Virus record (IMG/VR): IMGVR_UViG_3300025132_000335
Coordinates: 1 to 22,587 of that record
Length of the DNA stretch: 22,587 bases
Direction: 5' to 3' (one strand)
Source of the DNA: a virus
Shown: piece after piece, positions 2 to 13,384 of the stretch
Layout: every line of letters starts with the position of its first letter
Position numbering within the stretch: position 1 is the stretch's first letter
Notes under the pieces: model-generated
Database searches by the model: none
What the model saw: only the letters and a program-made list of their open reading frames with translations
Told to the model about the DNA's origin: nothing
Program-made: the position numbers and the translations under genes

Positions 2-430
2 ACTTGGAAATTATCTAAACCGACCCAAGAACAAATCAATAAAGTAGGTCGTAATAGCAGATTTATTACTATCGAAAAATCTAGGTCTGGAAGAATGGGG
101 ACTCAAATGATAATGAAGATGAAAGATGATCTTACCTTTGCTATCGCTGATTACACTCCTGAAGTATCTGATGATTCTGGTTCTCCTACTACTGTTCAGG
201 ATAAGGTTCTTCAAAAGCTAAGAAAAATTCATCCAGAAACTTATACCATAAATCAAATGATTCACGATCCAATGGTTGATGGTAAAGATGCTGCGATAAG
301 GAAATCATTCCAAAGATTAATCAAGAAAGGTCTTATTGAACTTATAGAAGATGATAATTCTAATAAGTCTTATAGAGCAGTCCTCGCTCGCGGGGCGTTG
401 ACATATCCTGTCTCATTGGAGGAATCGTAG
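2..430 (+). CDS. Replication-type ATPase/helicase, C-terminal fragment (cut by window edge)
   Basis: The reading frame is open from the left edge of the window, so this is the 3' end of a larger gene; the first internal ATG (95) is not the real start. The visible 142 residues begin with a beta-rich segment containing SRFITIEKSRSGRMG, which resembles the last strands of RepA-like/RecA-fold replicative ATPases, where a basic 'EKSR' stretch precedes the end of the core. After an acidic linker (about residues 50-65), the part from VQDKVLQKL to LIKKGLIELIEDD has the pattern of a winged-helix domain (helix, helix, recognition helix, wing). The P-loop would lie upstream and cannot be checked. The gene is followed directly by the TGGGACAA repeat cluster, which fits a replication initiator or helicase next to its origin. 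The family assignment is inferred from a short fragment; a primase-helicase or another AAA-type phage protein is equally possible. Confidence 0.5.
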   Translation, partial: TWKLSKPTQEQINKVGRNSRFITIEKSRSGRMGTQMIMKMKDDLTFAIADYTPEVSDDSGSPTTVQDKVLQKLRKIHPETYTINQMIHDPMVDGKDAAIRKSFQRLIKKGLIELIEDDNSNKSYRAVLARGALTYPVSLEES

Positions 431-449
431 TCGTACCAATAGATTTCAG

Positions 450-577
450 TGGGACAACTATGTGAGACAAAATAGATTGTCCCATTGTTTTTGGAGCGTA
501 GGACAACTTTACTTGTCCCATACCCTTGTCCCATACCAGATCAATGTTGTGGAGCGTGATTATAGAGAATGGGACAA
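450..577. repeat. Iteron/operator-like cluster of TGGGACAA repeats
   Basis: Seven copies of one 8-bp word lie in 128 bp. Exact TGGGACAA occurs at 450-457 and 570-577 on the plus strand. Exact TTGTCCCA (the same word inverted) occurs at 477-484, 513-520 and 526-533. One-mismatch copies are TGAGACAA at 463-470 and TAGGACAA at 499-506. Copies 499-506 and 513-520 form an inverted repeat with GGACAA/TTGTCC arms and a 6-bp centre. A second word, TGGAGCGT, occurs at 492-499 and 550-557. The cluster lies between a replication-type gene and a small putative RHH gene, so it is a candidate replication origin (iterons) or multi-site operator. The repeats are seen directly; the function is inferred. Confidence 0.7.
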
Positions 578-668
578 TTTTAGCCACTCTCCCCAGGGAA
601 AATACTCTTTAACATTAATAAAGTATCAATGTATCGAATTTGTGATAACATTAGTTAAAAAGATATTT

Positions 669-3545: not shown

Positions 3546-4163
3546 TTATTCTACATCTTTTTTCTTCTTTGTCAGCTTTTTAATTATGTTTTTTACTAAG
3601 GGTTTTACGACATTAAGGAGTAATGGAGTAGTGGCAGCAACGCTAGCAATGAGAGCAGTGCTAACAAGCTGTGGAGGATTTGGTATGTATTGATCTTTGA
3701 ACGGTACGTCTTCATAAAGAGTGATACATTCAATTCCATCTTCTCCCCTTTTATAGCCTTTTATACGTTCCAAACGCTTTTCATTAACAAAACTTCCTAC
3801 TCTTAAATTTCTTTTGCTAGGGCAAGGTTCTATTTCTAGCTTCTTATCTTTCTTAGGCTTGATAGTTTTACTTTTAGTTTCTTGTGCAGGTTGAGGTGTT
3901 GAAACTGGCCTTTCCTCTGTAAAAATAATTTCATTTGGATCGTATCGCATGGGATTATACGAGGGGATCTGACCCTCTGGACAGACAGTGTACGTTCCGT
4001 TAGGATCTGCAATTAGTAAAGAAGGATTTCGTGTAGTTTCTAAATCTCTATGAAATAAATTACAACCTGGTATTTTACCTTCTAATTTATGTTTTATAAA
4101 ATATGGAGCGTCTGGTATATCAATAGTCGGTATTGTTATCTCAGGCAGCTTAATCGTAGGCAT
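3546..4163 (-). CDS. 205-residue tail-anchored protein of unknown function
   Basis: This is the last gene of the long minus operon. The N-terminus has a striking periodic Pro/Ile pattern (IKLPEITIPTIDIP, residues 4-17), as in extended beta or fibre-binding peptides. The middle (residues 85-110) is a Pro/Lys/Thr linker (TPQPAQETKSKTIKPKKDKK). The next domain contains CPSKRNLRVGSFVNEKRLER and GIECITLYEDVPF. Cysteines lie near residues 34, 61, 114 and 146. A hydrophobic helix at about 170-190 (LVSTALIASVAATTPLLLNVV) followed by a very basic tail (KNIIKKLTKKKKD) makes it look tail-anchored in a membrane. The start overlaps the zinc-ribbon gene (4150-4163). I recall related proteins in marine cyanophages, also uncharacterised. 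It converges on the plus operon ending at 3511, with 34 bp between and no clear terminator hairpin. Confidence 0.7.
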   Translation of the reverse strand: MPTIKLPEITIPTIDIPDAPYFIKHKLEGKIPGCNLFHRDLETTRNPSLLIADPNGTYTVCPEGQIPSYNPMRYDPNEIIFTEERPVSTPQPAQETKSKTIKPKKDKKLEIEPCPSKRNLRVGSFVNEKRLERIKGYKRGEDGIECITLYEDVPFKDQYIPNPPQLVSTALIASVAATTPLLLNVVKPLVKNIIKKLTKKKKDVE

Positions 4164-11369: not shown

Positions 11370-12446
11370 TTAAAACTCCGCATCTTGTATGGCATGAGCC
11401 GACATATATTTACCTGTATTTGCACCAGTGCCTTGCATTTGAAGGTTAGCACCACCCATTCCTATAGAAGTTGTGCCAGCGTTTACATCATTGTTATCAT
11501 CTCTGTTTCTCCATTTATTAGCAGCACCAGTTGTGCTGTATATAGTAACTGAAGGTCTAGCTCTCATAGTGCAAGGAGTAGATGCTCTAAGTCTAATAAA
11601 TGCACCTGAAATTGCAGCAACGGCATAAGATCCATTATCTGTATTTGCACCAGCGTATGTACCATAATCGTAAGACGAATGATAGTATCTTTGACATCTT
11701 CCTAATTCATCATGAAAAGTTCTATGTTCAAAGTCTGTAGCTTCAGAACCTAGTTCTATTTGAAATCCTGTGAAATATGCTGTTCTACCTATTTGACCTA
11801 TTTCAAATGCAGCCATAACATTAGTGCCACCAACTGTTGGAACTGTAAAAGTTTTTGTAAATCTTTGCCAACTTGTCGTTAATGAAGGATTACTGTCTGT
11901 GCTTGTAAAAGAAACCTGATTTGAATTGCTAAATTTACTTTCTCTAAAGTTAATAAGAACATTAACAGCTTCCGTTCCAGAATCTACTTTGCCATAAAAA
12001 CTTACTGTTACAGTGTTACCAGCAACCATAGGTTGAGAACTGCCTGTTGCACATAACTCAATAGGCTGTCCTATAGATAAATCATTACTACTGTAAGTTA
12101 ACTTTGCAGAATATTTAAACCCTGCTGGTGCATCAGTGCTTCTTGCATAAGTTATACCAGAACCAGCACCCCAAAATCTGTCAGCACAATAACCTCCATC
12201 AGTAGTTGTCGAGCTATTTCTTTGCCAGACAAGCATACCTCCATTAATAAATAAATTTCTATTACTAAATGCACTACCGCTTACACCACTAACAGATTGC
12301 AAACTGTTGCTTGAATCTTTAGTTGTTATTACTCCGTCAACATCAGTGCTAGGAAGTTTTAATGTTCTGTCTGCTGTAGGGTTAGTATCTGGTGCAGATA
12401 TTGAAACACCATTACCACTTGAATGTTTTAATTTAATTGAACTCAT
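11370..12446 (-). CDS. Tail fibre/receptor-binding protein (copy A, 358 residues)
   Basis: Residues 1-45 (SSIKLKHSSGNGVSISAPDTNPTADRTLKLP) form a short N-terminal domain seen in many marine phage fibres. The next part is NRNLFINGGMLVWQR, then CADRFWGAGSG, and a beta-sandwich with VTVSFYGKVDSG and WQRFTKTFTVP that looks like a carbohydrate-binding module. FTGFQIELGSEATDFEHRTF and CQRYYHSSYDYG precede a tip domain rich in Gly/Thr/Asn. It is paralogous to the 388-residue protein two genes downstream but has a different tip, as expected for duplicated receptor-binding proteins. It overlaps the S74 fibre gene by 4 nt (ATGA). Each copy is followed by its own small partner gene. Confidence 0.75.
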   Translation of the reverse strand: MSSIKLKHSSGNGVSISAPDTNPTADRTLKLPSTDVDGVITTKDSSNSLQSVSGVSGSAFSNRNLFINGGMLVWQRNSSTTTDGGYCADRFWGAGSGITYARSTDAPAGFKYSAKLTYSSNDLSIGQPIELCATGSSQPMVAGNTVTVSFYGKVDSGTEAVNVLINFRESKFSNSNQVSFTSTDSNPSLTTSWQRFTKTFTVPTVGGTNVMAAFEIGQIGRTAYFTGFQIELGSEATDFEHRTFHDELGRCQRYYHSSYDYGTYAGANTDNGSYAVAAISGAFIRLRASTPCTMRARPSVTIYSTTGAANKWRNRDDNNDVNAGTTSIGMGGANLQMQGTGANTGKYMSAHAIQDAEF

Positions 12447-13384
12447 GCAGCCTCCAATGCAGCAACTTTAGTTTCTAATGTTTCGATTTTACCTACTGCT
12501 TCCTGTAGTGCAGCGGTAAGTAACGGAACTATAAATGAATTGTCAGCACCTTGATAGTAAGGGTTATTATCAGAATCAACTTGATCTTTAGTTCCTGATA
12601 CGGCTTCTGGTACGACTACTTGCAATTCATGTGCCAAAAATCCATCTATTGTATTTCCAGCATCATCTTTGAAATTAAATCGACAAGGTTTTAAGTCTTT
12701 TAACCTTGTAATGCCATTAGACAAAGTAGCTACATTTTCTTTAAGTCTATAATCAGATGTAGTTTGGTAAGCAACTCTAGTAGCATTTATATCTACTTGG
12801 CCTTTAACTAAACCATTACGTCTATATTGTGTAATATTTCCACTTGAATTTCTATTTTGCATCAAATTAAAATTATCTGTCTTAGAAAGAAAAAGACAAG
12901 TACCTAAACTTGCATTGTATTGAAAACAAGCACCTTCATCACCACTAGTTGTTCCTACTGTTACTCTGTTTGGATTATGTATCTTAAAATGACCATCAGA
13001 ATCAATTTGCATATAATTTGTGTAAGTTCCGCTAAAATCTCTTCCAAATTTTAGAGCAGCATTATTAGAAGCAATTATCGCATTATTACTACTGTCATTA
13101 CCCATATAAAGTGCAGCGGTAACAGATGCTGGTCTATTTATTGCAAAAATTTCATGACTAGCTGTTTCTGATCTGATTTCAAATGGTTTATCAGGAGAAG
13201 TTGTGCCTACACCAATACGACCACTTGCATCAACGTGTAATCTTGTTGAGCCTCCTGTATTTACATTTACAATATCTGTTCCAAATGAAACTCCTGTATT
13301 GCTGTCTGTACCTGTAAAAACAGGTGCGGAAGCTGAACCATCAATTCCAGAAATACCAGTTGTTCCGTTAATGTTTAATGCCAT
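12443..13384 (-). CDS. Fibre protein with C-terminal S74 intramolecular chaperone
   Basis: This encodes 313 residues. Residues about 1-80 are a fibre N-terminus (ALNINGTTGISGIDGSASAPVF ... GRIGVGTTSPDKPFEIRS), and the GRIGVGTTSP box is typical of these proteins. The C-terminal 104 residues form a peptidase S74 chaperone domain: TTSDYRLKENV carries the Ser-Lys dyad (S210 and K215, the spacing known from endosialidase-type domains), followed by LKPCRFNFKD, DGFLAHELQ and VPEAV, and a terminal coiled coil (GKIETLETKVAALEAA). In this family the domain trimerises the fibre and then cuts itself off just before the serine. The catalytic residues are intact here, so cleavage after residue 209 is expected. 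The gene lies between the 209-residue fibre and the duplicated cassette. Confidence 0.85.
   Translation of the reverse strand: MALNINGTTGISGIDGSASAPVFTGTDSNTGVSFGTDIVNVNTGGSTRLHVDASGRIGVGTTSPDKPFEIRSETASHEIFAINRPASVTAALYMGNDSSNNAIIASNNAALKFGRDFSGTYTNYMQIDSDGHFKIHNPNRVTVGTTSGDEGACFQYNASLGTCLFLSKTDNFNLMQNRNSSGNITQYRRNGLVKGQVDINATRVAYQTTSDYRLKENVATLSNGITRLKDLKPCRFNFKDDAGNTIDGFLAHELQVVVPEAVSGTKDQVDSDNNPYYQGADNSFIVPLLTAALQEAVGKIETLETKVAALEAA

Follow-up and report, generated by a model that had tools for sequence, protein, structure and literature searches.

What is the role of a dense cluster of short repeats that lies between the end of a replication gene and a small gene for an RHH-like protein? 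The window analysed here is the whole 22,587-base IMG/VR virus record IMGVR_UViG_3300025132_000335, a genome fragment of an uncultured marine phage. A first-pass annotation had described seven copies of an 8-bp word at 450-577 and had suggested either a replicon control region, made of iterons and a copy-control protein, or an operator with several sites that serves a lysogeny or replication switch. Following the analyses below, we consider it highly probable that positions 408-577 are the replication origin of this tailed marine phage, or the initiator-binding core of that origin, and that the C-terminus of the primase-helicase reads it.

All seven copies of TTGTCCCA/TGGGACAA, five of them exact and two with one mismatch, are where they had been described (Table 1), and no further exact copy occurs elsewhere in the 22.6-kb window. 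Shuffling gave an expectation of 16.5 sites with at most one mismatch per window, or 0.094 per 128 bp, and the Poisson probability of seven or more in a 128-bp stretch is 1.2e-11, which places the cluster beyond chance, as had been claimed. The reported inverted-repeat pair with a 6-bp centre is that at 463/477, and the pair at 499/513 has a 6-bp centre likewise. The count of seven has to be revised, as relatives reveal an eighth site, with two mismatches, 42 bp to the left of the others. The complete array (> < < > then < > > <) is dyad-symmetric about position 492, with spacings of 42, 13, 14, 22, 14, 13 and 44 between the starts of its eight sites, and its two sets of iterons have opposite orientations. 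In Rfam nothing came above threshold: the one match, to a microRNA family, has 26 bits where the gathering score is 100, and is caused by the inverted repeats. Another repeat, T(T/G)TGGAGCGT, occurs in the spacers at 489-499 and 547-557 in the same orientation; it is also present in the left spacer of relatives L041 and L044. Directly right of site 8, at 582-598, lies AGCCACTCTCCCCAGGG, which is near-invariant among relatives and is kept in L077 too (about 3995-4012) despite the diverged flanking DNA.

Table 1. Positions in the window of the array sites and of the features around them
Feature	Positions	Strand	Remarks
Initiator gene, 3' part	2-430	+	primase-helicase; 142 aa in window, 710 aa in relatives
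Predicted winged-helix domain, proposed array binder	194-379	+	fragment residues 65-126; AlphaFold2 and Foldseek
Codon AGG, Arg of AI-R-K, proposed specificity residue	299-301	+	tracks word in 81 loci
Site 1	408-415	+	CTGTCTCA, degenerate, inside 3' end of initiator gene; TTGTCCCA in 34/46 aligned relatives
Site 2	450-457	-	exact TTGTCCCA
Site 3	463-470	-	TTGTCTCA, one mismatch; exact in L041, L043, L044
Site 4	477-484	+	exact
Dyad centre	485-498		length differs among relatives
Site 5	499-506	-	TTGTCCTA, one mismatch
Site 6	513-520	+	exact; same in 46/46 aligned relatives
Site 7	526-533	+	exact; same in 46/46 aligned relatives
Site 8	570-577	-	exact
A+T-rich tract, candidate unwinding element	601-660		A+T 73-83% per 30 bp; 64% over the whole window
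RHH-like gene, right of array	669-959

Most relatives come from a search that used an alignment of divergent initiators (A4) and was blind to the repeats; it gave at least 571 related stretches, 80 of which were kept. The eight-site geometry is kept in 85 of 90 loci (the 80 kept A4 loci and earlier relatives), and five fall outside it. Geometry fit scores were 35-40 of 40 for real arrays and at most 27 for the best shuffled segments, with a few fits (L366, L367, L368) mis-assigning one site near the centre. Spacings between cores in the relatives are 43-47, 13-14, 12-14, a variable centre, 13-14, 13 and 45-46, and the central gap measures 22-24, 33-34, 54-55, 67 or 78 bp from core to core; a difference by whole helical turns between these lengths is suggestive only (P about 0.05). 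Alignment columns within sites have a mean minor-allele fraction of 2.4%, against 13.3% in the spacers, and 83% of them are invariant against 27%. In divergent relatives the rep reading frame, at its 3' end, contains the array, whose geometry is retained; selection therefore acts on the DNA. The cluster is kept in relatives that have both flanking genes, and the repeats are not spread out: all six exact copies in a 42.5-kb relative belong to one cluster. More distant relatives (L324 and L330, about 40% identical in the C-terminal domain) also carry TTGTCCCA arrays, of a different geometry.

The left neighbour had been taken for a replication-type ATPase, and in relatives the complete gene indeed encodes a primase-helicase. 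The full-length protein of L029 (4297-6429) consists, in order, of a primase part that matches phrog_1156 at the N-terminus, PriCT_2 (3.6e-13), a RecA-like AAA_25 ATPase (1.4e-19) and a C-terminal domain; the domain search found no DUF927 or D5 type. The fragment in the window is 98-99% identical to its nearest relatives. Among 50,697 phage records there was no relative covering most of the initiator, the best match by score being the RecA-family ATPase of S-CBS4, with 28.6% identity over 30% of the query. For the C-terminal domain, AlphaFold2 gave helices at residues 65-75, 83-87 and 96-108 and strands at 112-116 and 122-126 (mean pLDDT 76.5, and about 82-92 across most of this domain), and Foldseek matched it to winged helices of the MarR/Fur/MecI type (probability 1.00, best E 0.0075). 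The domain is predicted from these models to be a winged helix.

A link between this domain and the array is suggested by the variation of the word. Its core, TGTCC, is near-invariant and is followed by CA, CC or AG. These two bases are alike across the sites of one array, the word drifting in concert, with a similarity of 0.82 within an array versus 0.46 for the same site between word classes. Over 81 loci, the third residue of an AI-X-K motif in the predicted recognition helix (residues 96-108) goes with the word: arginine with CA (52/52), lysine with CC (11/11), and histidine or glutamine with AG (18/18). Only one of 510 well-filled alignment columns has residue sets that are disjoint across the three word classes, and it is this one; it is also the sole column where both CC lineages share a residue missing from all CA rows. 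When the winged helix is left out of the tree, lysine with CC requires two branches (starred on the tree) and thus two independent lineages, and the close sisters L366 and L367 differ both in the word and in the residue. One further array, with TA (L440), has arginine, a word switch without a matching residue change, and L324 and L330 have alanine or serine at this position beside their TTGTCCCA arrays. Of the independent switches, two to CC and one to AG are accompanied by the residue and the one to TA is not, and because they are so few a sign test cannot reach 0.05 and formal significance is out of reach. Since the residue covaries with the word, the winged helix of the initiator is the likely reader, and from this covariation and the analogies discussed below the array is very probably bound by the initiator's own C-terminus.

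Multi-site arrays of short words can act as operators, and this array is upstream of the RHH gene. An operator, bound by the initiator or another regulator and silencing or timing the small genes at 669-1233, is nevertheless very unlikely in our judgement, because the genes downstream vary among relatives while the array persists and because the position 3' of helicase genes recurs with different genes downstream. The location inside the rep frame in divergent relatives also argues against it, and so, weakly, does the failure to find a promoter-like site between array and RHH gene, the region 300-1000 holding one such site against 2.3 expected. The lysogeny or replication switch of the first-pass annotation is disfavoured on the same grounds. 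Many relatives, for example L012 and L029-L037, have a short reading frame (MTTQQRIEAAKQRIAELERL...) between the array and the RHH gene, which is absent in the window.

A role of the RHH protein in copy control or partition, with the array as its binding site, is less probable still. The gene adjoins the array, 63 of 77 relatives have a homologue no more than 2.5 kb away, and the fold model is compatible with RHH, although Foldseek matches to ParD1 and SegB were weak (E above 2) and did not confirm the RHH fold for the 669-959 protein. However, a homologue was not found within 2.5 kb in the other 14 of the 77, some being short contigs; the distance of the gene differs among relatives, reaching 2.4-3.4 kb from the rep end in L153 and L140; and the array also occurs in satellites and in other phages that lack an RHH protein. 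In L077 the base before TGTCC became G at seven of the eight sites (GTGTC-) while the putative DNA-contacting strand of the RHH protein, HGNKKYYHVLIDINRG, stayed the same, and in L110, L171 and L175 the strand is altered and the array word is not. It is the AI-X-K residue of Rep that follows the word. The proposed replicon control region remains the best reading, with repeats that behave as iterons, but the RHH protein as its copy-control protein is not supported. Nothing in these analyses points to the plasmid-like replication that had been suggested.

The least probable explanation is a stem-loop origin with the repeats as paired arms, of the type of pRN1. The initiator of that plasmid combines AEP primase, helicase and winged helix, its origin is a stem-loop of 100 nt located 3' of the gene, and this mode of origin has been proposed for phages too (PMC4234260). 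The array does fold better than dinucleotide shuffles (z -2.4), but this is due to the sites alone, because controls with the sites kept and the spacers shuffled fold equally well (z of the array against them -0.1 to +1.5), and changes at sites 3 and 5 mismatch their partners with no compensation. The spacers, whose dyad complementarity is 33%, likewise speak against an extended base-paired stem.

Returning to the array as an iteron origin, we infer this function from the computed array, its geometry and how well it is conserved, the word that changes in concert, the residue that goes with it and the predicted fold. The primase-helicase would bind each 8-bp site via its C-terminal winged helix, and the arginine of AI-R-K in the recognition helix would read the dinucleotide that follows TGTCC. 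The two mirror-image sets of four sites would be occupied by eight initiator C-termini, and two helicase assemblies might then load in opposite directions. Nearby DNA would melt, perhaps in the A+T-rich tract right of the array, and both strands would be primed, so that replication may be bidirectional. A comparable A+T rise right of the array is present in L029, L044, L077 and L110, and the dyad centre is not A+T-rich. GC skew, which had been proposed as a check for an origin, has no turning point at the array. As the window is a genome fragment, the phage may also have an origin elsewhere.

The closest parallels are the origins of the SaPI/PICI satellites (SaPIbov1, SaPI5, EcCICFT073), which are directly 3' of rep and have opposed iteron sets (PMC6092414, PMC7581432); a PICI rep with its ori drives plasmid replication, as studied by comparison with rep- or ori-mutated constructs (PMC6092414). 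The present array is also directly 3' of its initiator gene (sites 408-577, gene end 430; 85 of 90 relatives alike), with two opposed sets of short iterons, and the satellites' self-loading helicase with a C-terminal DNA-binding domain (PMC6092414, PMC7581432) has a predicted counterpart here. Unlike the satellites, the phage has an AEP-like/PriCT_2 initiator with a RecA-like AAA_25 domain and not a DUF927 or D5/Primase_Cterm helicase, eight sites with dyad spacing, and an A+T-rich tract to the right of the array instead of between the sets. The word of EcCICFT073 is GGTAGACA versus TTGTCCCA here, and E. coli DUF927 satellites use TTGTCCCA as well. A PICI satellite is ruled out by the phage's own tail genes, which occupy the minus strand of the window and encode a tail tape measure, minor tail proteins and the central tail fibre J. 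A tail-associated protein encoded at 12443-13384 contains the endosialidase chaperone domain Peptidase_S74 (E 3.5e-9). Because of the different helicase class, the tail genes and the lack of an A+T-rich centre, the locus is not a SaPI/PICI member, and by analogy it would work like their origins.

The alpha protein of phage P4 has a C-terminal winged helix, and the iteron sites at its ori and crr lie in both orientations. Alpha, a primase-helicase, binds the iterons of its origin before it unwinds the DNA and primes (PMC4234260), a combination resembled here with a predicted winged helix. The phage initiator does not belong to the P4 alpha family (Toprim primase, SF3 helicase and winged helix), having an AEP-like primase and a RecA-like AAA_25 domain, and the word differs. 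The archaeal plasmid pRN1 (ORF904) shares an AEP primase-helicase with a C-terminal winged helix and an origin directly downstream (PMC4234260), but it has an SF3 helicase and a stem-loop origin without iterons. At the putative SCCmec Cch2 origin, the repeats bound by the C-terminal domain follow the gene directly (PMC7581432); they are three AAGTG direct repeats and form no dyad array, and the helicase is of the D5 type.

We also looked for the word more widely, scanning IMG/VR for paired or triple copies of TTGTCCCA and genomes for three direct copies. Only mixed-orientation arrays were used, because many direct-copy matches are plain tandem repeats in coding DNA. The mixed-orientation pattern was found in 34 contigs, versus 1 for a scrambled word and 5 for the reversed word AACAGGGT; at least three of those five are iteron arrays beside primase-helicase-like genes, with DUF5906 confirmed for two. 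Arrays of TTGTCCCA adjoin other primase-helicases, those of the Toprim-AAA_25, Prim-Pol-AAA_25, Prim-Pol-DUF3987 and VapE types and those of Escherichia DUF927 satellites. A literature search by DNA word returned unrelated papers only.

Other phages and satellites have arrays in the same position, 3' of primase-helicases. Immediately 3' of that gene and in both orientations, Rhizobium phage 16-3 (L361, 2536-2903) has TGTCACG fifteen times, Roseobacter phage CRP-811 (L362, about 2557-2721) TTTGTAG eleven times, and Klebsiella phage P12620-1 (L365, about 3654-3932) TTGGTTCA eleven times, against shuffled maxima of 3-5 for the word counts in named phages. Judged from their sequences, these three arrays are likely origins. 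Marinobacter PS3 has GGTCACC/TCACCCC seven to eight times, and Pseudomonas Haddon CTGTCCC six times, 3' of the helicase gene. No array above chance was found in S-CBS4, ctyzp037, Mae-JY30, Mano or U10; the first two carry distant AAA_25 proteins.

Some occurrences of the word are in other settings. In L198, L225, L236 and L295 (Prevotella, Bacteroides, Desulfamplus and a Bacteroidetes MAG), similar cellular genes of about 470-550 aa carry TTGTCCCA direct repeats in or at their 3' coding part; by eye we take these genes to be AlbA-like. A Bacteroidales contig (L287:1083-1439) has sixteen alternating TTGTCCCA/TGGGACAA copies with spacings of 12 and about 29-32, and no replication gene was recognised on it. 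Four TTGTCCCA sites in L101 (11393-11661) adjoin a T7-like RNA polymerase gene, not a helicase gene. E. coli Ec1117 (L315:5098-7392) has a satellite with DUF927, SSB and TTGTCCCA iterons, and DNA like this module is present in 772 of 5,426 complete E. coli genomes, in 60 of the 772 over at least 80% of the query.

Perhaps TGTCCCA is a recurring origin word of unrelated primase-helicase classes (AEP-AAA_25, Toprim-AAA_25, Prim-Pol, VapE and DUF927), with a single recognition-helix residue switching specificity within one class, an idea that we hold tentatively and regard as rather doubtful. The C-terminal domains of these classes have no common detectable profile: comparison of profiles, built from shallow alignments, gave no detectable homology across initiator classes except between two VapE groups and, weakly, in two other pairs. 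If the word does recur across classes, this could reflect descent from a common winged helix that has gone unrecognised, convergence, or a reading factor that the classes share.

Since similar arrays lie 3' of primase-helicases in tailed phages of Pseudomonas, Marinobacter, Rhizobium and Roseobacter, a look at the DNA that follows the helicase gene could reveal origins of this kind in many phage genomes. These results point to a likely origin and its likely reader for a large group of uncultured marine phages, with at least 571 related stretches, and the putative one-residue switch in DNA recognition (arginine, lysine, or histidine and glutamine against CA, CC and AG) is now directly testable.
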